This document shows, in pieces, positions 20,138 through 32,595 of a stretch of DNA of 64,000 nt (position 1 is its first letter; the number at the start of each line of letters is the position of its first letter). The translations under genes and the position numbers were made by a program. The stretch comes from Bradyrhizobium embrapense. Its GTDB lineage: Bacteria; Pseudomonadota; Alphaproteobacteria; Rhizobiales; Xanthobacteraceae. The DNA lies in the NCBI RefSeq assembly GCF_001189235.2, contig NZ_LFIP02000001.1:62001-126000 (forward strand), read 5' to 3'. Below the pieces are notes generated by a model. That model saw only the letters and a list, made by a program, of their open reading frames with translations. It searched no databases and was not told the DNA's origin.

Positions 20138-20449
20138 ATGACTGCAGCAAAGGCGGATAAGACGGCGCCGAGGCAAGCCGGCAAAGGCCGCGCCTATGCC
20201 TCGGCCGGCGCCGCAATGCGAATCAGCGCGGCCGAATTCATGGCTTGGCAGGAAGAGCTACGCCTATCCAATGGCGCCGCAGCTGCAGCGCTATTCATCT
20301 CGCCCAATACCGTTACAGCGGTGCGCGCGGAAGGCGGTAGCGCTGAACTGGCGCTGAAGTGTCGCGCCATCGCCGCCGGCCTTTCGCCAGCGCTACCCAT
20401 GCAAGAGGCCTTTCGCCTCGGCCGAATTGCCGCGATCCTGCAGGAATAG
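20138..20449 (+). CDS. Small helix-turn-helix protein
   Basis: A 103-residue protein, first gene of the plus-strand array. Residues about 30-75 (EFMAWQEELRLSNGAAAAAL, then FISPNTVTAVRAEG) look like an XRE-like helix-turn-helix, so it may regulate the array or the adjacent divergent region. The start ATG at 20138 follows AGGG. Identification is from the helix pattern only. Confidence 0.7.
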   Translation: MTAAKADKTAPRQAGKGRAYASAGAAMRISAAEFMAWQEELRLSNGAAAAALFISPNTVTAVRAEGGSAELALKCRAIAAGLSPALPMQEAFRLGRIAAILQE

Positions 20450-20564
20450 AGCCGCAATTCCCTCTAGTGTGAGTCCGGCCGGGCTAAAGGCTATCTTTTT
20501 TCACAGAACAGCGAATTAGGGGATTGACACGCGCCGCGCTTTATAGGCATGTGCGGTTTGTGAG

Positions 20565-20581
20565 GCGCGATTGTGCGCAAA
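20565..20581 (+). repeat. Repeat A, copy 1
   Basis: GCGC-GATTGT-GCGC-AAA; the 4-bp stem ends 18 bp before the start codon at 20597. Intervening AAAGG is the ribosome site. Confidence 0.85.
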
Positions 20582-20596
20582 TCTAAAGGCCGCGAA

Positions 20597-20770
20597 ATGA
20601 ACGCTTTCATTTCCTCTTGCATCGCAAATCCGGCTTTGGCCGGTTTCCTCTTTGCTGCGATCTATTCCCTTTGCTGGGCTGGCCTAGCTCCCTTCCTGTA
20701 TGCGCCGGCAAAGCCTCGGCGCCTCATGATCCGGCGCCGCGCGCGCCGTTCCAGTTCGCCGCGCCGCTAA
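20597..20770 (+). CDS. Small membrane protein, 57 residues
   Basis: The start is the ATG at 20597 after repeat A and AAAGG; a GTG inside the repeat is a worse choice. One hydrophobic segment (about residues 13-35, PALAGFLFAAIYSLCWAGLA) is followed by an Arg-rich tail, predicting a single-pass inner-membrane peptide with a cytoplasmic C-terminus. Function unknown. Confidence 0.7.
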   Translation: MNAFISSCIANPALAGFLFAAIYSLCWAGLAPFLYAPAKPRRLMIRRRARRSSSPRR

Positions 20771-20788
20771 CCCGGCAAGGCTCAACCC

Positions 20789-20805
20789 GCGCAATCGTGC
20801 GCAAA
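20789..20805 (+). repeat. Repeat A, copy 2
   Basis: GCGC-AATCGT-GCGC-AAA, a loop variant. The stem ends 19 bp before the GTG start at 20822. Confidence 0.85.
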
Positions 20806-20821
20806 TCGAAAAGGTAAGACA

Positions 20822-21007
20822 GTGACAAACTCAACCGTGAAAAGCCTCTTGCACCATGCGGCCGCGGCGATCCGGGTTGGAAACCTCACACTCGCATTGC
20901 GGCTTGTGTCCAATGCCGAATGCCTGGCCTCGGCGGACGAAACCATTTCCGCGGTGCGCCTCGGCCATATTCGCACCGCGCGGCTTGCGCTCGCAATCGC
21001 GAACTGA
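20822..21007 (+). CDS. Hypothetical 61-residue helical protein
   Basis: Starts at GTG 20822, 19 bp after repeat A copy 2, with AAAAGG as ribosome site. The protein is short and helical (LRLVSNAECLASADETISA). No family is recognised. It heads a mini-operon with 21021 and 21239. Confidence 0.65.
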   Translation: MTNSTVKSLLHHAAAAIRVGNLTLALRLVSNAECLASADETISAVRLGHIRTARLALAIAN

Positions 21008-21020
21008 GGAGCGCGCGACA

Positions 21021-21233
21021 ATGGCAACCGCCACAATCAAAAAGCGCGATCATGTCACCTATGTTTGCAGCGCTGGTGTCACCGTTACCGCCATCGTTCG
21101 CACCGCGCACCGCGACGGTACCGCTACGGTTGAGGCCCGGCATATGCTGGACTCGGCCGGCAATATCCGCGGTTGCTATCTCGGTTACCGCTACCGTTTC
21201 GACGCCAGCGATCTAACCCGGGTTGAGGCATAA
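21021..21233 (+). CDS. Hypothetical 70-residue beta-rich protein
   Basis: Start ATG 21021 after GAGGAGCGCGCGACA; a much longer in-frame extension overlaps the previous gene and is rejected. The protein (KRDHVTYVCSAGVTVTAIV and on) is predicted to be all-beta, perhaps a small barrel. No repeat A precedes it, consistent with co-translation with 20822. Confidence 0.65.
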   Translation: MATATIKKRDHVTYVCSAGVTVTAIVRTAHRDGTATVEARHMLDSAGNIRGCYLGYRYRFDASDLTRVEA

Positions 21234-21238
21234 CGCAC

Positions 21239-21478
21239 ATGGCAAAGCCTGATGATTTGACCGTGTACGCCTCGGCCGGATATGCCGCGCCGGATTCCAC
21301 AAATCCGCACCTCTGGAGTAGCGCAACACACATTGCCTATTGCCTCGGCCAATGGTTTCACGCAACCGGCCGGCCGGCGCCGCGCGCGGTCCGCATGTCC
21401 CGCGGCCTTTCGATCCGCGCAAACGATATGCTGATACGCTGGGATGCTAAAACCGGCGCATGCGAGCGTATCAACTAA
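21239..21478 (+). CDS. Hypothetical 79-residue protein
   Basis: Begins 5 bp after the previous stop. Contains LRIRW-like strands and aromatic residues (HLWSSATHIAYCLGQWFHA). Third gene of the mini-operon headed by repeat A copy 2. No function recognised. Confidence 0.65.
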   Translation: MAKPDDLTVYASAGYAAPDSTNPHLWSSATHIAYCLGQWFHATGRPAPRAVRMSRGLSIRANDMLIRWDAKTGACERIN

Positions 21479-21535
21479 CGCGATTTGCAGCCTATGCCGT
21501 GCACGTCACGGCATAACCGGCAAACCGCCGAAACC

Positions 21536-21552
21536 GCGCAATTGTGCGCAAA
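21536..21552 (+). repeat. Repeat A, copy 3
   Basis: GCGC-AATTGT-GCGC-AAA; the stem ends 20 bp before the ATG at 21570, followed by GAAAAGGA. Confidence 0.88.
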
Positions 21553-21569
21553 CTGAAAAGGAAACCGCT

Positions 21570-21674
21570 ATGAAGTATCGCAAGCATGACTCCGACCGCC
21601 GGCCGATGGACAAGCGGACTCGGCGCGCCGCGGTGCGCAACGGAAAGCGCTCGTTTCTGAATTCGTGCCTCTGA
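21570..21674 (+). CDS. Basic 34-residue peptide
   Basis: A very short gene (MKYRKHDSDRRPMDKRTRRA start) supported by repeat A copy 3 and the GAAAAGGA ribosome site directly ahead. The product is strongly basic and may bind nucleic acid. It stops 11 bp before the ATG of the next gene, so it may also be a leader coupling that gene. Confidence 0.6.
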   Translation: MKYRKHDSDRRPMDKRTRRAAVRNGKRSFLNSCL

Positions 21675-21685
21675 GGGATACGCCA

Positions 21686-22141
21686 ATGCGATGGACGTTT
21701 GACCAATGGTTGACGGCATGCGGCGCGGAAATGTCGCTCCAGTTTAATTGGACGCTGGAGCATTCCGGGTTGCGCGGTTTCGATTGGAGCGCGGCCTATG
21801 GCCGAGGCCTCACGGTCCGCGCGGCTTGTGACGCGGCTTACGATCATGTGCAGGAAACTGCACTAGACGGCGCCGTCTATTTCAATTGCTGCACTGGCAA
21901 CACGGCGCCGGATTGGTCCGCCTTCCGTTCGCTCGAAATTGGCGGATGCAAAATGGTGAGCAATTCCGCTGGCGAAAGCTACGTGCACGGGAATCAGGCG
22001 CCGGACGATTCCGCTTTTTGGACTGTCTACGCTCGCGAGCATGACGGTTGCGCGCTGGCGATTACCGATTGCGGAATCCTCACGGAAACCCACGCGATAG
22101 CGGAAACGCTTTCCCGGCTTTCCGGCCTTCCCCTGATTTGA
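21686..22141 (+). CDS. Hypothetical 151-residue protein
   Basis: The start is the ATG at 21686 with GAGGGA upstream; an in-frame GTG at 21665 lies inside the previous gene. The protein is rich in aromatic residues and Cys (YFNCCTGNTAPDWSAF, FWTVYAREHDGCALAITDCG). The C-terminal half resembles no family I recognise. Second gene of its unit. Confidence 0.65.
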   Translation: MRWTFDQWLTACGAEMSLQFNWTLEHSGLRGFDWSAAYGRGLTVRAACDAAYDHVQETALDGAVYFNCCTGNTAPDWSAFRSLEIGGCKMVSNSAGESYVHGNQAPDDSAFWTVYAREHDGCALAITDCGILTETHAIAETLSRLSGLPLI

Positions 22142-22196
22142 CGTTGCGACACTGCGCAGCATGTCTGCGCAGCACGGAACGCCAAAGCGGACCAAC

Positions 22197-22213
22197 GCGC
22201 GATTGTGCGCAAA
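22197..22213 (+). repeat. Repeat A, copy 4
   Basis: GCGC-GATTGT-GCGC-AAA; the stem ends 23 bp before the ATG at 22234. Confidence 0.88.
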
Positions 22214-22233
22214 CTTGAAAAGGACAACGGCCA

Positions 22234-22476
22234 ATGCCTTGGAAACTGGAACTGCAGGAAACCCGGCGCGGTTGCCAAATGCTGGAAACGACACCGCGCT
22301 ATGACGTTCTCTTGAACGGCGCGCGAACCGGCCAGCTGTATTTCAACACGCGCGGTTATGTCGGATATCTGCCGACGCCGGCCGGCGGAAAGATCGATAT
22401 CGGAGAGAAGGGAATCACGGCGTTTCGTCGCGAGGTTTCCGCGCTCAACCGGGAAGCTAGGAACCTGGCCGGCTAA
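22234..22476 (+). CDS. Hypothetical 80-residue protein
   Basis: ATG 22234 follows repeat A copy 4 and GAAAAGGA. The protein has a beta pattern in the middle (YDVLLNGARTGQLYFNTRGY) and a basic C-terminal helix. Single-gene unit. Function unknown. Confidence 0.65.
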   Translation: MPWKLELQETRRGCQMLETTPRYDVLLNGARTGQLYFNTRGYVGYLPTPAGGKIDIGEKGITAFRREVSALNREARNLAG

Positions 22477-22479
22477 CCC

Positions 22480-22496
22480 GCGCGATTGTGCGCAAA
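22480..22496 (+). repeat. Repeat A, copy 5
   Basis: GCGC-GATTGT-GCGC-AAA begins 3 bp after the previous stop codon, leaving no room for a separate promoter. The stem ends 21 bp before the ATG at 22515. Confidence 0.88.
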
Positions 22497-22514
22497 TTGA
22501 AAGGACAGACTACA

Positions 22515-22706
22515 ATGGCACGATATGGCGGCGATCCGCGATGGATCATTACCAAATATCCGACCAATGACCGCAACGGCCGTTTCATCCCGGTAGGAAC
22601 GCGCGCGTTCTACTATCCCGCTTCCAAACGCATGTTGACCGGCGCCGAGGCGGAACAGGCAAGCCGTGACTTTGAGGCCGCGCGCTTTGACGAAAGCATG
22701 GGGTAA
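22515..22706 (+). CDS. Hypothetical 63-residue protein
   Basis: The ATG at 22515 follows repeat A and GAAAGGA; a GTG inside the repeat is rejected as start. Contains TKYPTNDRNGRFIPVG and a C-terminal acidic helix. No family recognised. Followed 5 bp later by the next gene. Confidence 0.65.
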   Translation: MARYGGDPRWIITKYPTNDRNGRFIPVGTRAFYYPASKRMLTGAEAEQASRDFEAARFDESMG

Positions 22707-22711
22707 CGGAA

Positions 22712-23011
22712 ATGGATTTTGCAGCATTCCAAGCCGCCGCGGCCGAGCTGGATAACCGGATGACAACGGCCGGCGCGCGCCTCGGCGCCGTGACAGAAAG
22801 CCTTGCGGCCGAGATGGGGATTCCGGCGCGCGGTCCGATGGGATTGACGCCCGATCGAATTAAGTTCGATCCGCGATACCGGCTTGCGAAGGCCGCGGCC
22901 GATATCGCCTTTTCGGAACTGCGCGCATTCAATGCCCGGTATGCCCGGCGGTTCAAGAAAGAGATACGCGCCGCGATTGACGCGCGGCGCCGTGCCAAGG
23001 CAACGGCCTGA
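22712..23011 (+). CDS. Hypothetical 99-residue helical protein
   Basis: Starts 5 bp after the previous stop and lacks its own repeat A. The protein is mostly helical with a strongly basic C-terminus (RRFKKEIRAAIDARRRAK), so nucleic-acid contact is possible. No known family. Confidence 0.65.
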   Translation: MDFAAFQAAAAELDNRMTTAGARLGAVTESLAAEMGIPARGPMGLTPDRIKFDPRYRLAKAAADIAFSELRAFNARYARRFKKEIRAAIDARRRAKATA

Positions 23012-23039
23012 CCTGGCCTCGGCCTTCCCTCAATTCTCG

Positions 23040-23056
23040 GCGCGATTGTGCGCAAA
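23040..23056 (+). repeat. Repeat A, copy 6
   Basis: GCGC-GATTGT-GCGC-AAA; the stem ends 22 bp before the ATG at 23076, with GAAAGGA between. Confidence 0.88.
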
Positions 23057-23075
23057 TCAGAAAGGACAATGGACC

Positions 23076-24167
23076 ATGCAACAGGTTGATTTGATCGCGG
23101 CAAAGGCTGCAAAGGCAACGGAACGGCGCGCGCTCGCAATCGTCGCGTATGACAACGCAACAGCGAATCCCGATTGCGCGAACTGGCGCGCGGTTGCCGA
23201 TTTGCTTAGGCTCGCATTGCCGGCGCCGAAAGCCGGATCCGCCGCGGCCAAGATCCCGGACGGCGCGGCCGATCATTGGGCGGACTATGTGATTCCGGCA
23301 AGCGCGACCAAACGTCTAGGCAAATCGCCTATTATCGTTGTCACGTTCTCTTGCGGCGCCGTGGTACGCGCGCCGGCAGTTTCCCTTCCCGGCAAGCCGG
23401 TCAATATCGGCCGCGGCTTGCGTGTTGCCTTTGCCTTCTACCGGGCACGGATCGCACGGGAATTCGGCAAGGCCTCGGCCATTGGTTCCGATTGTGTCGC
23501 GGTTCCGGCCATCGTTTCCGTTGCCTGTGACGTTGCCGGCGCCGAGTATTCCGCCGAGGAATGCAACGCGCGAACGGCCGAATTCCGCCGCGGCCGTTTC
23601 GATCATATCGCGCTTTCGGCCGAGGCCTCGGCCTTGCCGGAAACCGCCGAGGCCGGCGAGTTGACGCGCGCCGACTTCTACCGCGGCCATTACCTCATTG
23701 CCTCGGCCGAGGCCGAGATTTTGGCCGGCGCCAATGAGGATCACGCGGCCGAGCTCGGCGCGCAGATTGCCGACTATCGGTCGCGTCTCGGCGGTATGGC
23801 CTGGCTGGAGATTGAAGCGCGGCGCCGCGCCATCATTCGCGCGGCCGAGGCCGAGGCGAAAGCCGCGGCAAAGGCCGAGGCCGAGGCCGGCCGGCGCGCC
23901 GAGCAAGAGGCCGAGGCCCGCGCAGCTGCAGCCGAGGCCGAGGCGTCGCGGTTGCGGCTTGTCGCGGACAATTCCGCCAGCGTCGAAACCGCGTCGGCTT
24001 CCCTCCCGGATACGGCCGATTCCCTCCCGGTTGCGCCCGCGCCCAAATCGATCGCGCCTATCCCGGTTGCGCCTTCCCGCGCCGCGCGCTTCCTGGCCTC
24101 GTCATCGCTCGGCGCGCCTCGGCCTTCCCTCCCGGTTGCGCCTTTCTGCGCGATCCGCGCCAGCTAG
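23076..24167 (+). CDS. Hypothetical 363-residue protein with Ala/Glu coiled coil
   Basis: The start is the ATG at 23076 after repeat A copy 6; an upstream in-frame extension overlaps the previous gene. Residues 1-110 form an ordered region with VTFSCGAVVRAPAVSLPGKP. Residues 240-310 are an uninterrupted Ala/Glu/Arg helix, likely coiled coil. The C-terminus is Pro/Ser-rich and contains an in-frame copy of repeat B (24007-24023). Dense GCCGAGGCC words encode the helix. Function unknown. Confidence 0.65.
   Translation: MQQVDLIAAKAAKATERRALAIVAYDNATANPDCANWRAVADLLRLALPAPKAGSAAAKIPDGAADHWADYVIPASATKRLGKSPIIVVTFSCGAVVRAPAVSLPGKPVNIGRGLRVAFAFYRARIAREFGKASAIGSDCVAVPAIVSVACDVAGAEYSAEECNARTAEFRRGRFDHIALSAEASALPETAEAGELTRADFYRGHYLIASAEAEILAGANEDHAAELGAQIADYRSRLGGMAWLEIEARRRAIIRAAEAEAKAAAKAEAEAGRRAEQEAEARAAAAEAEASRLRLVADNSASVETASASLPDTADSLPVAPAPKSIAPIPVAPSRAARFLASSSLGAPRPSLPVAPFCAIRAS
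24007..24023 (+). repeat. Repeat B, copy inside a coding region
   Basis: CGGATACGGCCGATTCC matches the repeat B consensus but lies in frame near the 3' end of the 23076 gene (encoding PDTADS). Confidence 0.6.
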
Positions 24168-24182
24168 TCGGAGTCGCCAGCA

Positions 24183-24380
24183 ATGCGAGCCTATGGATTC
24201 GATATCTTGCCCGATGGCGCAAAGTTTCGCCTGATTGATCGCTGCGAATTCAACAATTGGGGCGAGCTATCGCCGCGGTTTGATACTCCAGCCGAGGCCG
24301 AGGAATACGCGCGCCGCTGCGACGAATTCAAGCGCGGCAAGCGTTCAAGCGTCGAATTGCGCGCTTGGGAACTGCACTAG
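24183..24380 (+). CDS. Hypothetical 65-residue protein
   Basis: Starts at ATG 24183, 15 bp after the previous stop. Begins MRAYGFDILPDGAKFRLIDR and is compact and charged. It has no repeat of its own and probably depends on the upstream unit. No family recognised. Confidence 0.65.
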   Translation: MRAYGFDILPDGAKFRLIDRCEFNNWGELSPRFDTPAEAEEYARRCDEFKRGKRSSVELRAWELH

Positions 24381-24415
24381 GCCGCGGCGCGCCTCGGCCT
24401 CACGGAATGCAACAC

Positions 24416-24432
24416 GCGCGATTGTGCGCAAA
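24416..24432 (+). repeat. Repeat A, copy 7
   Basis: GCGC-GATTGT-GCGC-AAA; the stem ends 21 bp before the ATG at 24451. Confidence 0.88.
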
Positions 24433-24450
24433 CGGAAAGGAAAACAGACC

Positions 24451-24864
24451 ATGCGGAAGCCGAATCCCAACAAAGAGAAGGCCGCGCAGCTGGCGCGCCA
24501 GATTGCCAACATGACGGAAGAGCAGAAGGCGATTTGGCTGCAGCGCGCGCCGATCCTCACCGCGGACGCGCGGCCGATATCCGGGAAAAATCACATGCTG
24601 GCGGCGATGCAATGCGAAGGCGCAACCATGCTCGGCGGCTTCAATCAATGGCTTTCCGCCGGTCGCGTGGTGCGCAAAGGCGAGTCCGCAATCTACATTT
24701 TCGCGCCGTCCGGCCGGCGCGCGACGGCCGAGACCTCGGCGGCGCCGAGCGCGGAAGGCGCCGCGGCCGAGGCCGTGGCGGAGTCCGTGCGGTTTATCCT
24801 GGTCCCGGTTTTCGACGTCTCGCAAACCGAGGAAAAGCCGGCCGAGCAAGCCGCCGCGGCCTAG
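24451..24864 (+). CDS. ArdC N-terminal-like antirestriction protein
   Basis: A 137-residue protein starting at ATG 24451 after repeat A copy 7. The pattern GFNQWLSAGRVVRKGESAIY with a following IFAPSG and a late VPVFDVSQTEE is the core of the ArdC N-terminal domain. ArdC proteins are plasmid antirestriction proteins that bind single-stranded DNA. The zinc-peptidase half of full ArdC is absent; only the ssDNA-binding domain remains. It would protect incoming phage DNA from restriction (inferred). Confidence 0.8.
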   Translation: MRKPNPNKEKAAQLARQIANMTEEQKAIWLQRAPILTADARPISGKNHMLAAMQCEGATMLGGFNQWLSAGRVVRKGESAIYIFAPSGRRATAETSAAPSAEGAAAEAVAESVRFILVPVFDVSQTEEKPAEQAAAA

Positions 24865-24867
24865 TCC

Positions 24868-24911
24868 CGGGTACGGCCGATTTCCCCAATCCCTCGGCTA
24901 CGGCCGATTTT
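24868..24911 (+). repeat. Repeat B, tandem pair
   Basis: CGGGTACGGCCGATTT (24868-24883) and CGGCTACGGCCGATTTT (24895-24911) lie 11 bp apart, just before repeat A copy 8. Confidence 0.8.
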
Positions 24912-24915
24912 CTCG

Positions 24916-24932
24916 GCGCAATTGTGCGCAAA
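24916..24932 (+). repeat. Repeat A, copy 8
   Basis: GCGC-AATTGT-GCGC-AAA directly follows a repeat B pair; the stem ends 20 bp before the ATG at 24950. Here the two repeat families meet. Confidence 0.88.
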
Positions 24933-24949
24933 CCAAAGGAGCTAACGAC

Positions 24950-25219
24950 ATGCCGAAATTGATTCTCGATTGCCACCCCGCAACCGTCCAGGGCGATTGC
25001 ATCTTGACGTCCATCATGCAAGCCGGCCCCGTGGCGCGCCTCGTTGTCGATATCGCGCGCGCCGCGGACGCCGAAAGGGAATTCGCGGATTACTGCAAGA
25101 GCATTGAGGCAACCGGCAAGCCGGCGAGCGTTTCAATGCGGATCGCCCGCGCCGATCGCTCCCCGCCTGGCTTCAAGAAACTGAAGGGCGCGGCCGGCTT
25201 TCACAGTGTCAATTGCTGA
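24950..25219 (+). CDS. Hypothetical 89-residue protein
   Basis: ATG 24950 follows CAAAGGAGC. The protein (LILDCHPATVQGDCILTSIM and on) shows an alternating beta/helix pattern and three Cys. No family recognised. Overlaps or abuts 25230 downstream. Confidence 0.65.
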   Translation: MPKLILDCHPATVQGDCILTSIMQAGPVARLVVDIARAADAEREFADYCKSIEATGKPASVSMRIARADRSPPGFKKLKGAAGFHSVNC

Positions 25220-25229
25220 GGGCGCCGAA

Positions 25230-25424
25230 ATGACTTTCCGCGCCTATGACTTTCCTGCGGCCGTCATCCGGATTTATGCGGATGGCAGCTGCAGGGAGTT
25301 TCCGAAATGGTGCCTAATGATAAGCGTCGAACGCTCGCGCGCCTATGTCGCCAGTGCACTGCGCGAGTTGCGCAGCTATCGGCGGCGCCTCGCCGCTGAA
25401 CCGCTTCGCCCCGCCGCCGCCTGA
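25230..25424 (+). CDS. Hypothetical 64-residue protein
   Basis: The start is the ATG at 25230 with GAGGGC upstream, rather than a GTG at 25206 inside the previous gene. Begins MTFRAYDFPAAVIRIYADGS; the C-terminal half is an Arg-rich helix. Function unknown. Confidence 0.6.
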   Translation: MTFRAYDFPAAVIRIYADGSCREFPKWCLMISVERSRAYVASALRELRSYRRRLAAEPLRPAAA

Positions 25425-25452
25425 TTTCCCATCACAGAACAAAGGAACCGTT

Positions 25453-25860
25453 ATGCATCTCACCTTGCCCCGCTCGCCGCTCGCCGCGCTCGTTAACGAG
25501 GCCTCAAAGTATCGATGGCGCATCCGCTACGCGCTGCAGCGCTACGGCGTAGCCTGGCGCTACGCTCGCCAGCGCTCAACCCGCGATGACGGATTGACGC
25601 TGCTTTTCGACGCCGAGCATATCGCCGGGATTTACGGCCTCGCCTGCTTGTCCGAGGAATCCGTTTTGGATCGCGCGCGCGACCTATACGGCGACATTCC
25701 CGGTCTTGAGCGATGGGCGGCGGACGCTTGCGCGCGCGTCAACTCGAAACATGGCGGCGGCGATGGCGAAATGATCGGCGCGGCGGAAGATTGGGCGCTT
25801 GAACTGATGGCCGAATACGCCGCGCACGATGGCGTGACGCTGGCAGAACTCGCCGAGTAA
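25453..25860 (+). CDS. Hypothetical 135-residue protein
   Basis: ATG 25453 follows AAAGGAACC. The protein has a basic N-terminal helix and an acidic C-terminal half (ALELMAEYAAHDGVTLAELA). A longer in-frame upstream extension overlaps the previous gene and is rejected. No family recognised. Confidence 0.65.
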   Translation: MHLTLPRSPLAALVNEASKYRWRIRYALQRYGVAWRYARQRSTRDDGLTLLFDAEHIAGIYGLACLSEESVLDRARDLYGDIPGLERWAADACARVNSKHGGGDGEMIGAAEDWALELMAEYAAHDGVTLAELAE

Positions 25861-25901
25861 CCCCCGGCGCCGGCTGATTCCCCAGCCGGCGCGACACCTC
25901 C

Positions 25902-25918
25902 CGACTACGGCCGATTTT
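25902..25918 (+). repeat. Repeat B, single copy
   Basis: CGACTACGGCCGATTTT, about 46 bp before repeat A copy 9. Confidence 0.75.
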
Positions 25919-25964
25919 GCGCGGTGGATGACGCGCGGACCTGGCCGCAGCCGCTCAACCATCC

Positions 25965-25981
25965 GCGCAATAGTGCGCAAA
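25965..25981 (+). repeat. Repeat A, copy 9
   Basis: GCGC-AATAGT-GCGC-AAA, a loop variant; the stem ends 19 bp before the ATG at 25998, followed by GAAAGGA. Confidence 0.85.
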
Positions 25982-25997
25982 GCGAAAGGACGCTCCC

Positions 25998-26231
25998 ATG
26001 AGAACGATTAAGCCCGCGACACGCGACAATGCAATCCAACTCAACAACGCAATAGCGCTGATGAAGAAGGCCCGCGGCTGGTTGCGCGGCGCCGATAGCC
26101 CGAAAGCGTTGGAAGCGCTGCAAGCGGCGCTGAAGAGCGCCGAGGGCGCAAAGCGACACATGCAGCACAGACTCAACCGGGCCAATCCGCCTGGCCTTCG
26201 CGCGCCCGGCGTCGATCACATGCCGGGATAG
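25998..26231 (+). CDS. Hypothetical 77-residue helical protein
   Basis: Starts at ATG 25998. Helical and basic (KALEALQAALKSAEGAKRHM), possibly a small helical bundle. Headed by repeat A copy 9 and followed by a repeat B pair. No family recognised. Confidence 0.65.
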   Translation: MRTIKPATRDNAIQLNNAIALMKKARGWLRGADSPKALEALQAALKSAEGAKRHMQHRLNRANPPGLRAPGVDHMPG

Positions 26232-26236
26232 CCTCC

Positions 26237-26278
26237 GGGCTACGGCTGATTTTCCACCCCTCGCATACGGCTAATTTT
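26237..26278 (+). repeat. Repeat B, tandem pair
   Basis: GGGCTACGGCTGATTTT (26237-26253) and CGCATACGGCTAATTTT (26262-26278). The second ends 18 bp before the ATG at 26297. Confidence 0.75.
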
Positions 26279-26296
26279 CACAAGGAGATCACCATC

Positions 26297-27202
26297 ATGA
26301 GCACAATCACGATTTGGACTTGCACCACGGAAGGCGACAACTGCGGGACCGAAACCACGGTGCACGCAACCCAAGGCGAGGCCGTGGACTACGTGCGCGC
26401 AGCGCTCCGCGATATTCTCAAAAACCGCAGACCCGAGCGCCTGGCAGCGATCGCGGCGGCGACCGCCGAGAACATCAAAGAACTCTGGGAAGATGCGGTT
26501 GACGGACCTTGCATCATCGAAGAGCAGTCCGTGACGCTTCCGCCCTTTGCGGTCGCGATCTACGAAACCCGCTACGGCGACGAAACGCGCCTCTACGCCA
26601 ACACGGACGACGCGCAGACCTGGCGCCGCGAGATCGCCGCCGAGAACTGGGCGGCGCGGATGGACGAGGAACGGCCGGCCGATGCCGACGAGACCGCAGA
26701 CGCCTATTTCCATCACGTCGGCGAGGCGCGCGGCGACTTCTTCCGGGTCGAAGAGCTGGAGATGATCGGCGGCACAGTCCCGGTTGCGCCTGCCCAGGAC
26801 TGGCGCCAGATCGCCCGCGACTTGGCCGGCGCGCTCGATGCATGCACCCATCAGATTGGCCAGATGCGCGGCATGTTCGACGACGAGGACGGCACGATTG
26901 CGGAAGCAGTTTCCGACGCTGACGCCGCCTCCGAAGCCTACCGCCGAGCCGCCGCCGGCCTCCCGGCTGCGCCCGCGCTGCAGCCCATCGGTCAAGATGA
27001 CCGCGCCTGCTCGGAAGGCTGGGGCCTCTTCGAGAACAGCGACACAGGCCGGCTTGAGATTCAGGCCGACGCCGAGTCCTCAATCTTTGTGCGTGACGGC
27101 GTGAGCCACGACGACGAGGCCGAGGCATTCGTAAAAGCAAAGGCCGCCGAGGGCAGCGAGTACCACGCCGCGGCGCTCGCCCGTGTCGGTACGGCCCAAT
27201 AG
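26297..27202 (+). CDS. Hypothetical 301-residue acidic protein
   Basis: ATG 26297 follows CAAGGAGATC. The N-terminal part (TIWTCTTEGDNCGTETTVHA) is beta-like and the rest is acidic and helical. No catalytic motif is evident. It is one of the larger array genes and is headed by repeat B rather than repeat A. Confidence 0.65.
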   Translation: MSTITIWTCTTEGDNCGTETTVHATQGEAVDYVRAALRDILKNRRPERLAAIAAATAENIKELWEDAVDGPCIIEEQSVTLPPFAVAIYETRYGDETRLYANTDDAQTWRREIAAENWAARMDEERPADADETADAYFHHVGEARGDFFRVEELEMIGGTVPVAPAQDWRQIARDLAGALDACTHQIGQMRGMFDDEDGTIAEAVSDADAASEAYRRAAAGLPAAPALQPIGQDDRACSEGWGLFENSDTGRLEIQADAESSIFVRDGVSHDDEAEAFVKAKAAEGSEYHAAALARVGTAQ

Positions 27203-27205
27203 GCC

Positions 27206-27247
27206 CGGCTACGATCGATTTTCCACCCCCGAGCTACGGCCGATTTT
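27206..27247 (+). repeat. Repeat B, tandem pair
   Basis: CGGCTACGATCGATTTT (27206-27222) and GAGCTACGGCCGATTTT (27231-27247). The second ends 14 bp before the ATG at 27262. Confidence 0.8.
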
Positions 27248-27261
27248 GAGGAGCAGCACAC

Positions 27262-27453
27262 ATGCACTTGAGCGAGACGACAAACGGAAAGCTGGCGGAG
27301 GTCTCAACCCAGATTGAGGAGCTAATCCGCTGGGCTGAAGCGGACGCCGAGCACGCCCGCGAAAACGACGCGCGTCAAACCGCGCGAGATGATCGGAGCC
27401 GCGCCGCGAAGCTCCGCAAGGCGCTCGCCCTGGTGCGAGCGTGCGAGCGATAG
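27262..27453 (+). CDS. Hypothetical 63-residue helical protein
   Basis: Start ATG 27262, with GAGGAG between the repeat B copy and the start. The protein is a single charged helix region (LIRWAEADAEHARENDARQT). Function unknown. Confidence 0.6.
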   Translation: MHLSETTNGKLAEVSTQIEELIRWAEADAEHARENDARQTARDDRSRAAKLRKALALVRACER

Positions 27454-27495
27454 CCACTTGACACCGCCGGCAATCTGACTCATTGAACAACCCCC

Positions 27496-27512
27496 GCGCG
27501 ATTGTGCGCAAA
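27496..27512 (+). repeat. Repeat A, copy 10
   Basis: GCGC-GATTGT-GCGC-AAA; the stem ends 21 bp before the ATG at 27531. Confidence 0.88.
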
Positions 27513-27530
27513 TTGAAAGGATGAAGACAC

Positions 27531-29894
27531 ATGCAGCATTCCGCCACCTATTCGCCCGATGATAACAAGCTGCGCCTTTACCCGGCGCACCGGCTCGACG
27601 CCGAGGAGCACGCGCGCGTAAAGGCGCACGGCTTCAAATGGGCGCCGCGTCAAGAATTGTTCGTTGCGCCGATGTGGACGCCAGAACGCGAAGACCTGCT
27701 GATTGAGATGTGCGGCGAGATCGGCGACGAGGACAAGAGCCTGGTAGAGCGCGCCGAGGATCGCGCCGACCGTTTCGACGAATACAGCGACAAGCGGCTG
27801 TCGGAAGCTAACCGCGCGCGCGAGGCCGTGGACCAGATCGCGGAGCGGTTCGCGATGGGGCAGCCGATTTTGGTCGGCCATCATTCCGAGAAGAGCGCAC
27901 GCAAGGACAAGGAGCGGATGGACTCCGGCATGCGCAAGGCAATCAAGCTGTGGGACACTTCCAAATATTGGACGGCCCGCGCCGAGGGCGCCATCGCCCA
28001 CGCGAAATACAAGGAACTGCCGGCGGTGCGTCATCGCCGCATCAAGGGCATTGAGTCCGATAAGCGGAAGCTGGAGCGCCAGCAGGCCGAGACCGAAAGG
28101 CAGCTGAAAGCCTGGCAGATCGTCGCCGGCATCACGGACCCGGAGAAGCAGCGCGCGGCCGGTTTGGCCGTGGCCAACACCGGCGGTTATTGGTCGATGT
28201 CGTTTCCGCTGGCCGACTATCCGCGCGACCCGCCGGCCTCGCAGTATGAGGGACCGATGGGCCTTTGGTCGGCGATTGAAGGGAACGTCATCACCGCCGC
28301 CCAGGCCGCCGCTATCGCAATTCCTGGCCTGGAGCGCGGCGGGCCTCGGCGGGAGCGCTGGATTGCGCACTATGACAACCGGCTGGCCTATGAACGGGCG
28401 ATGTTGGCCGAGCAGATCGGCGCGGAGGCCACTGCCAACCCGCTTGCAGACCGTTTCGCCTTCGCCGTTGGTGGTCAGGTGCAAACCCGCCGCAGCGACG
28501 ATTGGCTTACGATTGTGAAGGTCAGCAAGGGCGCTAACGGCTCGGTTTCCAGCATTCAAACCGCAGCCCCGTCAGGATCGCGCGGGCGCGGCGTTTACTG
28601 GAAGGTCGAAAGCGTCCGCGACTATCGCGCGCCGACCGCCGAGAACGTCGCCGCGGCGAAGGCCGCCACGAAGCTCCCGCCGATTTGCAACTATCCCGGC
28701 GAGGGATTCCGCGAAATGACTGAAGCCGAATGGAAGGCGCGCCGGCAGTTCTCGGATTTCTCCTATATCGGCACGGTGAAGGCGACCGAGACCCAAGGCG
28801 CGCACCGCGTCCGCCAGATGCCGACGCCCGGCGAGTTCTGGAAGGCGCAAAAGGTTTTCATCACGGATGCAAAGCGCGTCGATCCGCCCAAGATCGCGCC
28901 GGCACCAGAGCCGACCGAACCGGCCGAATTTGTGGCTGAGTATGTCGCGCCGCCCGCGGTCGATCTTGACGCCATGCTGGCCACGGTCGGCGAAATCGTG
29001 GGCGCGCCGGTCGAGGCCGCGGCCCAGGACGAGCCCGAGGCCGCGCCGGCGCTGGCCCCGGATGCGCCCGCGGAAGAACCGCGACGCCTCGGCGACGCCA
29101 AGGCGGAGGCGCAGCGCATCGGCGCGGAGATCATCACCGGACTCGGCCAATTCCGTGTTGGCCTCGGCCAGCACGTTACCGACTGGTGCGACGACGAGGC
29201 GACCGCCTGGCGGCAGTTCTGCGGACTGGCTGGCGTGCCGTTTGAGGCCGAGGCCGTGCCGGCTGATCTGCGGCCGCGCGTTCTCGCCCCGGTCCCGGAT
29301 ACGGCCGATTTGCCGGCGCCGACCGCGGCGGACAGTTTCGAGGCCATGCGGGCGATGTTGAAGGGCGGCGGCGTGCAAGTCGTCGTCGCGCCTCAACTCT
29401 TCCCGACGTCGGACGAACTCGCCGCGGACGTTGCGGAGGCCGCGGACATCCGGCCCGGGCAACGCATCTTGGAGCCGAGCGCCGGAACCGGCGCCCTGAT
29501 CGAGGCTGCGCGCAACTGCGCCAATGATCTGCAGGTGGTGGCGGTCGAGATCAACACGAAGCTGTGCCATGCATTGGCGGACCGCTTCACCGGCATGCAA
29601 ATGACCGTCATCAATGCGGACTTTCTCGACATGGCCGGCGTCACGGACAAGTTTGATCGGATCATCATGAATCCGCCTTTCGAGCGCGGCGCCGATATCA
29701 AGCATATCGAGAACGCGCGGCGGTTTCTGAAGCCTAACGGCCGCCTGGTCGCCATCTGTGCCGACGGCCCGCGCCAGCGCGCGAAGCTCGAACCGATCGC
29801 GGTGGAGTATCGCGCCCTGCCCGCGGGATCCTTCAAGGCTGCTGGCACCATGGTCAACACGGCGTTGGTCGTGATCGACGGGCCGCCGGGATAG
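27531..29894 (+). CDS. DUF3560 protein fused to a DNA adenine methyltransferase-like domain
   Basis: A 787-residue protein. Residues 1 to about 200 match the DUF3560 family closely (ATYSPDDNKLRLYPAHRLDA, GFKWAPRQELFVAP, GQPILVGHHSE), which is common on alphaproteobacterial plasmids near ArdC genes. Residues about 635-787 are a class I SAM methyltransferase with ILEPSAGTGALIEAAR (SAM binding) and IIMNPPFERG (catalytic NPPF of N6-adenine enzymes). The middle is Ala/Pro-rich linker and contains an in-frame repeat B. It probably modifies DNA to evade restriction; the role of DUF3560 is unknown. Confidence 0.85.
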   Translation: MQHSATYSPDDNKLRLYPAHRLDAEEHARVKAHGFKWAPRQELFVAPMWTPEREDLLIEMCGEIGDEDKSLVERAEDRADRFDEYSDKRLSEANRAREAVDQIAERFAMGQPILVGHHSEKSARKDKERMDSGMRKAIKLWDTSKYWTARAEGAIAHAKYKELPAVRHRRIKGIESDKRKLERQQAETERQLKAWQIVAGITDPEKQRAAGLAVANTGGYWSMSFPLADYPRDPPASQYEGPMGLWSAIEGNVITAAQAAAIAIPGLERGGPRRERWIAHYDNRLAYERAMLAEQIGAEATANPLADRFAFAVGGQVQTRRSDDWLTIVKVSKGANGSVSSIQTAAPSGSRGRGVYWKVESVRDYRAPTAENVAAAKAATKLPPICNYPGEGFREMTEAEWKARRQFSDFSYIGTVKATETQGAHRVRQMPTPGEFWKAQKVFITDAKRVDPPKIAPAPEPTEPAEFVAEYVAPPAVDLDAMLATVGEIVGAPVEAAAQDEPEAAPALAPDAPAEEPRRLGDAKAEAQRIGAEIITGLGQFRVGLGQHVTDWCDDEATAWRQFCGLAGVPFEAEAVPADLRPRVLAPVPDTADLPAPTAADSFEAMRAMLKGGGVQVVVAPQLFPTSDELAADVAEAADIRPGQRILEPSAGTGALIEAARNCANDLQVVAVEINTKLCHALADRFTGMQMTVINADFLDMAGVTDKFDRIIMNPPFERGADIKHIENARRFLKPNGRLVAICADGPRQRAKLEPIAVEYRALPAGSFKAAGTMVNTALVVIDGPPG
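29296..29312 (+). repeat. Repeat B, copy inside the DUF3560 gene
   Basis: CGGATACGGCCGATTTG lies in frame, encoding PDTADL in the linker before the methyltransferase domain. Confidence 0.6.
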
Positions 29895-29911
29895 TCCCGG
29901 CTGCGCCCTCC

Positions 29912-29955
29912 CGCTTACGACCGATTTCCAAACCCTCCCGGCTACGATCGATTTT
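29912..29955 (+). repeat. Repeat B, tandem pair
   Basis: CGCTTACGACCGATTTC (29912-29928) and CGGCTACGATCGATTTT (29939-29955). The second ends 14 bp before the ATG at 29970, separated by GAAAGGA. Confidence 0.8.
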
Positions 29956-29969
29956 GAAAGGAACACAGC

Positions 29970-30464
29970 ATGCCTGACCGTTTCGAATACACTTCGGAAG
30001 AGCGGATGTTGCTCGCCCGCCTGGCCCAAGGCCGGCAAACCGACCGGGATTGCATCCCTGAGCGCGTGCTCGTCAATCGAGGCATGGCGCGCCGGGTCGA
30101 TCCCGGAGAGATCGAGATCACACCAGCCGGTCGCGACGAGCTCGCACGGATCGCCTCGAGCGCTGCTTTCTCCGGTCCAATCGACGGCGCACGCGCCGGC
30201 ATCATCGAGGCGCTCGGCGGCGCGTTCGCAACGCCTCCGGCTTCGCCACCGCCTGGCCGGCAACTGACCGACGATGAGAAGGCCTTCATCGCTCGCATGG
30301 CGCCGCACGTCATGGCCGGCAAGACCCTCGAGGAAGCCGGGGCGGCCGTCCTCCAGGATGATGAACGCTTGTGGCTGACCGCCATGGAGGATTCGGACGT
30401 CGGCCGCGCGATCCGCGGCGAGCTCGCCAAGGCGACATACGTCGCAGCGCGCGCGAAGCCATAG
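29970..30464 (+). CDS. Hypothetical 164-residue protein
   Basis: Starts at ATG 29970 after repeat B and GAAAGGA. Two helical halves are separated by a Pro-rich linker (PPASPPPG). The first half (SEERMLLARLAQGRQTDRDC) looks like a small winged-helix start. No firm family assignment. Confidence 0.65.
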   Translation: MPDRFEYTSEERMLLARLAQGRQTDRDCIPERVLVNRGMARRVDPGEIEITPAGRDELARIASSAAFSGPIDGARAGIIEALGGAFATPPASPPPGRQLTDDEKAFIARMAPHVMAGKTLEEAGAAVLQDDERLWLTAMEDSDVGRAIRGELAKATYVAARAKP

Positions 30465-30476
30465 GCGCGGCTGCCC

Positions 30477-30522
30477 CGACTACGACTGATTTCCCATCAC
30501 CCCCTCGGCTACGGCCGATTTG
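30477..30522 (+). repeat. Repeat B, tandem pair
   Basis: CGACTACGACTGATTTC (30477-30493) and CGGCTACGGCCGATTTG (30506-30522). The second ends 15 bp before the ATG at 30538. Confidence 0.8.
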
Positions 30523-30537
30523 AAAGGAGAATTACCC

Positions 30538-30909
30538 ATGCTCGTCACCGTCAAGGCCGGCGCCAAGGTGGAAGGCCACACCTTCAGCCAGGACTCGAAC
30601 CAAAACTTTGGGCGGGAGAAAGCCGAAGGCCTGATCAAAGATGGCCGCGCAAGGCCCGCGGCGTTCGACGCCGAGGGAATCTGCCGGATCAACACGCGGT
30701 TCGAAGCATGGCTCAACGAACATGGCGCGCTCGCGATCGGGTCTTGCGGCGATGCCTTTCTGCATCTCTCGCCGGAATTTCCGTTGGCTTACTTGCCCGA
30801 GGCACTGCAAGCCTATCAAGCGGGGCACCACCACGGCATGAGTTACGGCCGCAGCAAACTGCAGAACGAGCTTCTGAACTTGCTCGGGGCCGAGCCATGC
30901 AAGATATGA
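30538..30909 (+). CDS. Hypothetical 123-residue protein
   Basis: The start is the ATG at 30538 after GAAAGGAG; an in-frame codon at 30520 inside the repeat is rejected. Begins MLVTVKAGAKVEGHTFSQDS. It overlaps or abuts the next start. No domain recognised. Confidence 0.65.
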   Translation: MLVTVKAGAKVEGHTFSQDSNQNFGREKAEGLIKDGRARPAAFDAEGICRINTRFEAWLNEHGALAIGSCGDAFLHLSPEFPLAYLPEALQAYQAGHHHGMSYGRSKLQNELLNLLGAEPCKI

Positions 30910-31184
30910 CGGGGGAAGAGACAGTCACCGCGGCCGGCTACAGGGTTGCCACTCGCGCCGAGTTCGATGCCGCCACCGACGTGCCCGCGGGCGTGCGCCT
31001 GGTGGCCGATCGCCTCTTCAAACGCTGGGGCGGCGACTTCGTTGTTTACGATCCGGCCGGCGGTGATGACGGCTGGCTGCTGATCGACGACGACCGCGAG
31101 CAGATCATAGGCGAGACCGTGGAACACCTCGGACGGCTCAAACCTGAGCCGACTGCGCCGCCGGCACAAGGCTCGCTGTTTTGA
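30897..31184 (+). CDS. Hypothetical 95-residue protein
   Basis: Start ATG 30897 is taken; a second ATG at 30906 overlaps the previous stop as ATGA and is equally possible. The protein is acidic and beta-rich (WLLIDDDREQIIGETVEHLG). Translationally coupled to the gene before it. Function unknown. Confidence 0.6.
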   Translation: MQDMTGEETVTAAGYRVATRAEFDAATDVPAGVRLVADRLFKRWGGDFVVYDPAGGDDGWLLIDDDREQIIGETVEHLGRLKPEPTAPPAQGSLF

Positions 31185-31188
31185 CACC

Positions 31189-31205
31189 CGGATACGATCG
31201 ATTTT
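31189..31205 (+). repeat. Repeat B, single copy
   Basis: CGGATACGATCGATTTT, ending 15 bp before the ATG at 31221, with GAAAGGAG between. Confidence 0.78.
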
Positions 31206-31220
31206 GAAAGGAGACCGAGC

Positions 31221-31394
31221 ATGCCGCGGAACTGGATCGTGCGCGAGCGCCACCCATTCGATGATGGATACTGGGCGCGCTATGACGGCAAACGCCGCCC
31301 CAACAAGTCATTGACCGAGAAACGTGAGGGCTGGGAGGCTTGCGACCGCGAGATTGCCGAAGAAGCCCACGACGCTGAGGAGGCTGTGCTATGA
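31221..31394 (+). CDS. Hypothetical 57-residue protein
   Basis: A short gene with an excellent ribosome site (GAAAGGAGACC) behind repeat B and a 4-bp ATGA overlap with the next gene. Begins MPRNWIVRERHPFDDGYWAR and ends in an acidic helix. Resembles short accessory phage proteins; no function known. Confidence 0.65.
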   Translation: MPRNWIVRERHPFDDGYWARYDGKRRPNKSLTEKREGWEACDREIAEEAHDAEEAVL

Positions 31395-31759
31395 GGCAGG
31401 TCCGCCGCGTCCCCGCCGATTGGCAGCACCCTCGCAATTCCTGGGGTCGATATACGCCGCTCCTTGAGTCCGCCCCGGATGCACCCGCGCCCGATCTTTC
31501 CCGCTGCATGCCGGCATGGCCGGAGGCGGAGCGCACCCACTGGCAGTTGTACGAGACCACCAGCGCCGGCACGCCGGTTTCGCCGCCCTGCCCGTCGCCC
31601 GAGGCCTTGGCCAAATGGCTTGCCGACCACCATGTGGAGGCCGCACCAGGTTTCACCGGAACGGAGGCGCAATGGCTCGGCGCCATCAAGCGCGGCGGCG
31701 TCATTCCGCCGGTGATGACCGTCGGCAAGCAGCAGGTCTCGCCGCTGGATTACACCTGA
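31391..31759 (+). CDS. Hypothetical phage protein, 122 residues
   Basis: Overlaps the previous stop by 4 bp. The opening RQVRRVPADWQHPRNSWGRY followed by a Trp/Pro-rich body ('W-x-L-Y-E-T-T-S-x-G-T-P') is a pattern shared by a family of uncharacterised phage proteins. Likely cytosolic. No catalytic motif visible. Confidence 0.65.
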   Translation: MRQVRRVPADWQHPRNSWGRYTPLLESAPDAPAPDLSRCMPAWPEAERTHWQLYETTSAGTPVSPPCPSPEALAKWLADHHVEAAPGFTGTEAQWLGAIKRGGVIPPVMTVGKQQVSPLDYT

Positions 31760-31773
31760 TCGGCCGGGACTCC

Positions 31774-31819
31774 CGGCTACGATCGATTTTGTGCTACCCC
31801 CTCGGCTACGGCCGATTCC
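31774..31819 (+). repeat. Repeat B, tandem pair
   Basis: CGGCTACGATCGATTTT (31774-31790) and CGGCTACGGCCGATTCC (31803-31819); the second runs directly into repeat A copy 11. Confidence 0.8.
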
Positions 31820-31836
31820 GGGCGATTGTGCCCAAC
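31820..31836 (+). repeat. Repeat A, copy 11 (compensatory variant)
   Basis: GGGC-GATTGT-GCCC-AAC. Both arms differ from the other ten copies (C to G on the left, G to C on the right), yet pairing is kept. The stem ends 20 bp before the ATG at 31854. Confidence 0.8.
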
Positions 31837-31853
31837 CGGAAAGGAACTCTCAG

Positions 31854-32177
31854 ATGTCGCCCCCCAGATTTGTTCACCGCAAGATCTCGGCCGAGGACTT
31901 CAAGGCCGAGTTGGCGAAGCAGGGCATGTCGGTGCCGGCGTTCGCCCGTGTCTGGTGCCAGAACCTTTCGACCGTCACGAAATGGGCCAACGGCGGGAAC
32001 GATATCCCGACCTGGGTGCCGATCGCGCTGACCATGATGACGCTGCCAAACGCTCACGGGACCGCCCGTATGGCGGCGGCGGCGATGATCGAAGAAGATC
32101 GGCTGCATCCCGAGCTCGGAAAATTCCCGTACCAGAAGCTTCGGCAGATGCCGGCGGACGACGAGATCGAGGAATAG
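31854..32177 (+). CDS. Small helix-turn-helix DNA-binding protein
   Basis: A 107-residue protein, last gene of the plus array. Residues about 11-48 (SAEDFKAELAKQGMSVPAFA, then NLSTVTKWANGG) fit an XRE-type helix-turn-helix, so it is a likely regulator. The start is the ATG at 31854 behind repeat A copy 11; a longer in-frame extension covers the repeat and is rejected. Confidence 0.72.
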   Translation: MSPPRFVHRKISAEDFKAELAKQGMSVPAFARVWCQNLSTVTKWANGGNDIPTWVPIALTMMTLPNAHGTARMAAAAMIEEDRLHPELGKFPYQKLRQMPADDEIEE

Positions 32178-32180
32178 TCC

Positions 32181-32197
32181 CGGCTACGATCGATTTT
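32181..32197 (+). repeat. Repeat B, terminal copy
   Basis: CGGCTACGATCGATTTT. It lies between convergent genes and also encodes the last residues of the minus-strand 32184 gene, so no plus-strand gene follows it. Confidence 0.75.
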
Positions 32198-32399
32198 GCG
32201 TGCCCCGGCTGCGCCTTTTCTTCGCCGCGTGCCGTTTCTTGGGCGGCGCTCGCTTCGCCGCTGGCGCCGGCGGCGCGTCCTTCGCTGCGGCCGCGGCGTC
32301 GAGGGCATCGAGCTCCCGCTTCTGCGCCTGCATCCGTTCCCACCTGGCTTCGCGTTGAGCGCGCAGCGCGTCGGCGCGCGGTGACGGCTCCCTGCTCAT
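32184..32399 (-). CDS. Hypothetical basic 71-residue protein
   Basis: The start is the ATG at 32399, which overlaps the previous stop in ATGA; a longer upstream frame is antisense-like. The N-terminal helix (RADALRAQREARWERMQAQK) and a Lys/Arg-rich tail suggest nucleic-acid binding. It is the last gene of the leftward operon and converges with the plus array. Confidence 0.55.
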   Translation of the reverse strand: MSREPSPRADALRAQREARWERMQAQKRELDALDAAAAAKDAPPAPAAKRAPPKKRHAAKKRRSRGTQNRS

Positions 32400-32584
32400 G
32401 ACGGCGACCTTTGCCAGAACCAGCGGCGCCGGCGCAACAGCACGATTGCCTCTTGCGATCGGCCAGCAACGCTGATCGGTCGCCAACCGTCCGCAATTCG
32501 GCTGTTTAACTCTCGCCGCAACCATCCCTGCGACTGCGTGGAGTAAATGCTTTGGAGATCGTATTCGTAGCGATAGAGCAGCAT
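32396..32584 (-). CDS. DUF4177-like 62-residue protein
   Basis: The start ATG at 32584 gives MLLYRYEYDLQSIYSTQSQG. The pattern Y-x-Y-x-x ... LNSRIADGWRPISV ... AIVLLRR resembles the small DUF4177 fold (about 60 residues). Coupled by ATGA to the next gene. Function of the family is unknown. Confidence 0.6.
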   Translation of the reverse strand: MLLYRYEYDLQSIYSTQSQGWLRRELNSRIADGWRPISVAGRSQEAIVLLRRRRWFWQRSPS

Positions 32585-32595
32585 CGGTCCGACTC

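Follow-up and report, generated by a model that had tools for sequence, protein, structure and literature searches.

A 64-kb stretch of the Bradyrhizobium embrapense genome (64,000 nucleotides of an 8.27-Mb genome; contig NZ_LFIP02000001.1, positions 62,001 to 126,000; hereafter the window) contains a tailed-phage prophage, siphovirus-like as judged from its genes, in which eleven small genes are each preceded by a short hairpin that we term repeat A. Sequence comparison shows that repeat A is genuine and conserved, a leader that base-pairs and precedes uncoupled gene starts in a group of related prophages; other elements have a sister form of it, here called the C type. Across these elements, the comparisons support pairing that is kept, copies that sit at translation starts, the same genes marked in relatives, and one loop type per element. 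We lean toward a model in which repeat A is an mRNA leader hairpin whose loop is read by a putative trans-acting factor, controlling translation of the uncoupled genes.

The motif GCGCRATNGTGCGC (GCGC-RATNGT-GCGC) occurs in ten exact copies in the window, all on the plus strand between 20565 and 27509. Shuffled versions of the window yielded a mean of 0.08 exact copies and at most 2, ruling out a chance origin for the ten observed. These copies lie at 20565..20578 (hairpin 1, ahead of gene 20597), 20789..20802 (hairpin 2, gene 20822), 21536..21549 (hairpin 3, the gene at 21570 for a 34-residue peptide), 22197..22210 (hairpin 4, gene 22234), 22480..22493 (hairpin 5, gene 22515), 23040..23053 (hairpin 6, gene 23076), 24416..24429 (hairpin 7, gene 24451, encoding an ArdC N-terminal domain, Pfam PF08401), 24916..24929 (hairpin 8, gene 24950), 25965..25978 (hairpin 9, gene 25998), and 27496..27509 (hairpin 10, gene 27531, encoding a 787-residue protein with DUF3560 plus a methyltransferase). 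The eleventh hairpin, at 31820..31833 on the plus strand ahead of gene 31854, came from a paired-stem scan and reads GGGCGATTGTGCCC (GGGC-GATTGT-GCCC): both arms are changed, pairing is intact, and relatives have the same arms. The original prediction, which was made from the sequence alone and proposed eleven GCGC-RATNGT-GCGC hairpins, is accurate for ten copies, while the eleventh is still paired but is not a literal match. When RATNGT was allowed any flanking 4-bp Watson-Crick stem, a scan of the window returned the ten exact copies, the 31820 site, and two minus-strand sites without a ribosome-binding site. When two mismatches were allowed the motif was not clearly enriched (30 found versus 21.6 expected, with 6 of 100 shuffles reaching 30), indicating that the signal resides in the exact or paired copies. 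Moreover, a loop tally blind to both the A and the C motif placed ATTG and GATTGT at the top for the plus strand of the window (9 and 7 starts; the best on the minus strand had 5). Behind each of the eleven stems come AA, a brief A-rich linker, a GAAAGGA-type ribosome-binding site, and a start codon. The start codon lies 18-23 nucleotides (nt) past the stem, the spacing that had been proposed.

The structural module of the prophage, on the minus strand from 19556 to 175, encodes terminase, portal, protease, major head, minor tail, and tape measure proteins, and holds no A copy from terminase to tail. All eleven copies sit in a plus-strand block of 26 small genes at 20138..32177 (25 gene calls plus gene 20597, added by hand), after which minus-strand genes encode DnaB, DNA methyltransferases, and a polymerase processivity factor. 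Within the block, the 11 A-marked genes start 38-147 nt past the previous gene. Nine others, which overlap their predecessor or follow it by no more than 28 nt, carry neither A nor a second repeat, B. Ahead of five genes, at gaps of 36-75 nt, repeat B takes the place of A, and gene 20138, which opens the block, lacks both. The proposal that A marks the first gene of each mini-operon therefore holds for most mini-operons, the exceptions being the five spaced genes with repeat B and gene 20138.

A pattern scan of IMG/VR returned 17 stretches; six records beyond the window's own carry A clusters, and two metagenome contigs (L030 and L031) carry a single copy each. Using the 787-residue protein of gene 27531 as query, we identified three more A-type elements (G081, G121, and G073) and one different element (G083). 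We excluded L050 as the same element as G081 (0.999 of sampled 31-mers) and IMGVR 2636415425 as the window's own, leaving ten A-type elements, the window and nine relatives, with 7-12 A copies each, always on one strand. A search for loop, linker, and ribosome-binding site without a stem requirement gave 104 matches in these ten elements, 99 of them fully paired over four base pairs, with arm combinations GCGC/GCGC (89), GGGC/GCCC (9), and GCGC/GCGT (1); a shortened loop in G081 and an altered copy in G073 lie outside this search pattern. Loop position 5 faces a T that never varies; in a set of 65 non-redundant copies the position itself is A in 21 and G in 44, and in RNA the predicted loop can be closed by an A-U or G-U pair. 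The ribosome-binding site lies right downstream in 97 of 98 paired-stem copies from the ten elements, and the remaining one has a near-match to it. The refuting observation named in the original prediction, copies of the motif away from starts in relatives, is thus not borne out in these loci. The marking is also conserved gene by gene: in the nine other elements, 51 of 59 orthologs of the marked genes carry A, and none of 53 orthologs of 15 unmarked genes does. Farther afield, a narrow A pattern run against 84,980 species gave seven single matches and no cluster, although this pattern requires AAA after the stem and would miss AAC elements, and distant relatives of the 787-residue protein (L053-L058) showed no shared loop.

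In G083, genes are preceded by a hairpin with a TTCGCAG loop (UUCGCAG in RNA) on any stem, followed by CAAGGAGACCA. Three more elements of this C type were identified, G053 (IMG/VR 2695421015), G070 (2908764845), and 2922401287; in each C-type element 17-33 starts carry the C leader. TTCGCAG ranks first in G083 in the loop tally blind to the motifs. Our main pairing count took only TTCGCAG sites followed by AAGGAGAC, which placed 52 other TTCGCAG sites outside it; it and a separate, smaller count both omit IMGVR 2513237141 (0.998 of sampled 31-mers in G083), and the main count also omits 2908764845 (0.993-0.998 in G070). Across the 91 distinct C copies of the main count, 349 of 364 inner pairs form, compared with a mean of 168.5 for shuffled arms (standard deviation 10.5, maximum 204, 2000 shuffles) and at most 173 when the arms are slid by 1-3 positions. 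All four inner pairs form in 81 of the 91 copies versus at most 17 in shuffles, and the perfect copies comprise 26 distinct 4-bp stems. The separate count, on 66 distinct C arms, gave 249 of 264 inner pairs versus 119.8. Since the C stem varies yet pairs, the stem appears to be kept for pairing and the loop for its sequence; this covariation is strong, and by this comparative evidence the stem is conserved as base-paired RNA. Downstream, the ribosome box (AAGGAG was required by the search) is followed by A, C, and C in 92, 93, and 92 of 93 cases, with a gap of 3-35 nt between stem and ribosome-binding site. None of the four C-type IMG/VR records (behind L113, L132, L147, and L140) matched the large terminase family phrog_9, the one terminase family tried.

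The two hairpin types do not mix: the A loci that we read contain 89 A and no C copies, and the C loci contain no A and 98 C copies. For three genes that A marks in the window, the C-type elements contain relatives that follow a C loop: 27531 in G083, 22234 in 2695421015, and 24950 in both 2695421015 and 2908764845. Shared genes bear the local type, and thus the position is kept while the hairpin is exchanged. This swap in a fixed place is what chiefly hints, in our view, at a reader specific to the lineage.

In the model that we favor, the leader would act as RNA and would comprise, in order, a 4-5-bp hairpin whose loop is conserved, a brief A-rich linker, a strong Shine-Dalgarno sequence, and the start codon. 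A trans-acting factor would read the loop and raise or lower the translation of every marked gene jointly within long polycistronic messages, and genes coupled to a neighbor would need no leader of their own. Reading by such a factor is the likeliest mechanism, though unproven. More speculatively, the factor in the window's lineage may be the 34-residue arginine-rich peptide encoded at 21570..21674 on the plus strand, which itself lies behind an A copy and is possibly self-regulated. A further extension strikes us as doubtful: that a lineage-specific loop code on roughly 10-30 starts is read by a micropeptide (of 34 residues here, and perhaps of 22 residues in the other lineage), with shared genes recoded so that the leader serves as an expression password.

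The 34-residue peptide is a weak candidate for a hairpin-binding protein. Its gene and gene 27531 are the two marked genes that are present and A-marked in all ten A-type elements, and DKRTRR and GKR are unvarying in nine aligned peptide sequences. Of the 265 genomes searched in the genus, four encode the peptide, and these are the four with at least 5 A copies; G083, G053, and G070 were among those searched and lack it, and a relative of the 787-residue protein is present in G083. When 397 genomes of the order were searched with a profile, the peptide was found in its own genome, with matches in 11 others (E 2.8e-4 to 0.009) and no convincing ortholog in the five loci inspected. A single-sequence structure model predicts one helix over residues 15-31 (mean predicted local distance difference test score 78), and the TRR motif may resemble that of N-type arginine-rich peptides. 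G053, G070, and G083 share a C-marked gene for a basic peptide of 22 residues, among several other shared marked genes. This peptide stands behind a C hairpin at L072 8083, L166 16508, and L167 17374 (positions on the strand read). The 22-residue peptides end in RNGK or RHGK, and the 34-residue peptide of the window has a similar RNGKR.

A-type leaders also occur outside A clusters. G037, a genome without an A cluster, has an A-type leader ahead of an antitoxin gene (L162/L189) whose homologs occur in 137 of 265 genomes. In all 30 loci examined, a GTTATAC-type palindrome lies upstream of the antitoxin gene, at -29 to -68 in 28 loci and at -106 in G037 and G144. In these two genomes the A-type leader sits between the palindrome, on the promoter side, and the start, inside the presumed transcribed leader, with the loop changed in G144 (L188). 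G211 (L163) likewise has an A-type leader before a gene that reads as a helix-turn-helix (HTH) antitoxin, and one single A match of the genus falls within an apparent ATP-binding cassette transporter gene (L161). The antitoxin-gene leaders may have been carried out of phages, and their placement would fit an RNA role. By eye, the gene after the G037 antitoxin gene looks Doc-like, and one of the seven single matches in the 84,980-species scan, L039, is an A-type leader before an antitoxin-like gene.

Several observations weigh against reading of the leader by a dedicated factor, or against the peptide as that factor. Considered alone, the A type offers three arm combinations; the strong covariation comes from the C type, and a function common to both types is an extrapolation. 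The A mark is missing from 8 of 59 orthologs of marked genes; three of the eight belong to gene 25998, which also has three matches at just 38-42% identity, and some of the eight may reflect start errors, as ortholog starts were estimated from tblastn. On the C side, 52 TTCGCAG sites in C loci lack a ribosome box, and 9 of 28 distinct sites of this kind can form all four inner pairs; other hairpins may thus be among them. Conversely, 30 of 117 AAGGAGACC sites have no TTCGCAG upstream, some of them with a related loop. The C stem before the relative of gene 22234 is imperfect, forming just two inner pairs unless one base is bulged. The A hairpin is predicted to form to a modest extent: over a span reaching 45 nt upstream and 60 nt downstream, stem probability exceeds 0.5 at 61 of 99 A sites, and it is close to zero at window sites 20565 and 22480. 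The A-like leaders in genomes without an A cluster fit poorly with a phage-only factor. As for the peptide, it has no match in Pfam, PHROGs, or PDB, and it is not unique, since the mark also precedes the 787-residue gene in every one of the ten elements. Each of the nine other elements has relatives of the unmarked genes 20138 and 31391, so the peptide does not stand out by conservation alone, and its co-occurrence with A may reflect common descent alone.

The original prediction named a translation-initiation element, a protein-binding operator, and a minimal promoter as its main hypotheses. Pairing, position, and gene-by-gene conservation support the first, as an RNA element, and the varying paired stems and lack of a shared upstream element disfavor the other two. 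A DNA site acting as a repressor operator, stoperator-like roadblock, or minimal promoter would suit the single orientation, intergenic placement, and partial dyad symmetry of A, and HTH-like genes stand at both block ends (by eye, with weak PHROGs matches for 31854 at E 0.015 and 0.085). We nonetheless disfavor a DNA operator and consider a DNA site of any of these kinds highly improbable. In a stoperator or DNA operator the whole site should be conserved, but C arms vary freely with only complementarity kept. The A arms are nearly constant, with both arms changed together in the GGGC/GCCC copies. A stem kept as base-paired RNA argues against an operator and a promoter alike. A strict sigma-70 promoter scan of 19600-32600 found none, and no -10 or -35 element is common to all copies of either type, as sigma-70 promoters would require. 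A promoter at every copy is ruled out by the lack of a shared upstream element, although two positions do have a conserved TTGAC. The lack of room at 22480 does not in itself prove the absence of a separate promoter, which might overlap the gene before it. The two conserved positions are promoter-like TTGACA sequences on the plus strand, at 20524..20529, 41 nt upstream of hairpin 1 (TTGAC at -41 to -43 in 10 of 10 elements), and at 27458..27463, 38 nt upstream of hairpin 10 (TTGAC/T at -36 to -40 in 9 of 10). They account, at two positions per element, for 19 of the 23 places at which TTGAC/T occurs ahead of the 99 A sites. At such copies the hairpin would lie near the mRNA 5' end, and the other copies look internal to long messages. 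This arrangement gives some credit to a model in which each message starts or is cut just upstream and the hairpin shields its 5' end from decay, giving each mini-operon its own stable mRNA, since a transcript directed by the conserved TTGAC/T would begin a few nt ahead of the hairpin. Moreover, of 60 positions upstream of A only the last 4 pass the conservation cut-off, and these 4 nt are A/C-rich and G-poor in both A and C types, which could suit a single-stranded cut site. We rate 5'-end protection as unlikely: by itself it leaves the conserved loops and the non-mixing of A and C unexplained, the stem-to-ribosome-site gap in the C type is variable, and TTGAC/T occurs at just 4 of 97 C sites, every one TTGAT.

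An intrinsic terminator is ruled out, as no T run comes after the A hairpins, which lead instead into AA and a purine-rich ribosome-binding site. A passive insulator, in which the hairpin blocks upstream sequence from pairing with the ribosome-binding site and no factor is involved, could account for A-like leaders in genomes without an A cluster and for a predicted ribosome-site openness of 0.52 behind A versus 0.38 (in the block, n = 13) and 0.36 (elsewhere, n = 54) at other window genes with such a site. Forbidding the stem in the folding model, however, leaves mean predicted access unchanged across the 99 sites (0.518 to 0.521; it falls at 25 and rises at 36), and a passive hairpin requires no conserved loop, making the insulator quite unlikely in our view. 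As passive opening or closing of the ribosome-binding site is not predicted, the folding result favors a bound factor, within the limits of the model. Such a factor could instead act on RNA polymerase: in an antitermination model, the hairpin would be a boxB/N-like RNA site that loads a factor for read-through of the long block. The short GC stem, the conservation of its loop, and the helix predicted for the small arginine-rich peptide are compatible with this; the combination may resemble lambda boxB/N, and the A stem may be similar to P22 boxB. A nut site is found just once or twice in an operon and is accompanied by boxA; A, unlike nut sites, is present in many copies, one at each start and locked to the ribosome-binding site, with no conserved boxA-like stretch upstream. 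We regard antitermination as very unlikely, and translational control through a loop-reading factor remains the model that we favor.

The closest known system in position is the start-associated sequence (SAS) of cluster K mycobacteriophages, and the closest in build is the gp43 operator of T4 and RB69; neither is identical to repeat A. The SAS is reported as some 11-19 short repeats in each genome, almost always in the same orientation, just ahead of a subset of non-structural gene starts (PMC3203893; PMC11373665; see also PMC12699233 for cluster K). Repeat A shares with it the many short repeats in one orientation before the starts of a gene subset outside the structural module. The likeness to mycobacteriophages drawn in the original prediction thus extends to position, and the sequences differ. 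The SAS is a 13-bp GGGATAGGAGCCC (up to two differences) that includes the ribosome-binding site and typically lies 3-7 bp from the start, unlike the A stem, which ends 18-23 nt away, upstream of the ribosome-binding site, and has C-type counterparts that covary. For the inverted repeats of the extended SAS (ESAS), the authors reported scant support for a hairpin in the mRNA (PMC3203893), and later work reports promoter-like hexamers within them. The gp43 operator is a small hairpin upstream of the ribosome-binding site whose length differs between T4 and RB69 while the top ten bases, including the loop, are common (PMC3014915). It resembles the predicted A and C leaders as an RNA hairpin upstream of the ribosome-binding site with pairing kept, and differs in serving one self-regulated gene, with DNA polymerase as repressor, compared to 7-12 (A) or 17-33 (C) starts and no polymerase implicated here. 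A literature search, with most subscription journals and all bioRxiv preprints outside its scope, found among the matches listed no description of the A or C motifs and nothing on point for hairpins before ribosome-binding sites or for Bradyrhizobium prophage repeats. Start-associated repeats in mycobacteriophages were reported in 2011, and their role is still described as unknown in the cited literature (PMC3203893; PMC11373665). Compared with the SAS, repeat A offers a cleaner test case, with covariation-backed pairing, a constant loop, two exchangeable versions, and at least one candidate reader. If a factor does read the loop, the leaders would define a translation-level regulon across many phage genes and possibly an orthogonal expression module.

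Among the proteins of the block, Pfam searches on ten and PHROGs searches on ten gave matches for three only (24451, 27531, and, weakly, 31854). In the phage collection no record spans 80% of the 787-residue protein, and its C-terminal part alone is common to the best 12 of 221 records; the same collection holds 666 terminase relatives, all below 60% identity. Rfam 15 at the gathering score gave no family match in five sources (the window, L069, L070, L072, and L074) except one tRNA. ARAGORN called a tRNA-Pro at 40849-40931 on the minus strand, amid gene-dense sequence, and Rfam at the gathering score reported only the tRNA at 55951; the tRNA-Pro call may be a false positive. Further hairpins lie upstream of A copies 3 and 4, at 21493-21515 and 22152-22172, and in several relatives their stem sequence differs and, by eye, still pairs.

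Repeat B occurs as 14 exact copies of TACGRYYGATTT between 24872 and 32196, on the plus strand. It is confined to a single strand in all ten A-type elements (14, 8, 7, 8, 10, 8, 11, 7, 8, and 9 copies), and there are none in 192 kb of C-type loci. Copies are often paired, 25-29 bp apart, and stand ahead of the five spaced genes without A. Variants of repeat B do not, by eye, preserve a hairpin, and it may therefore be a DNA site.

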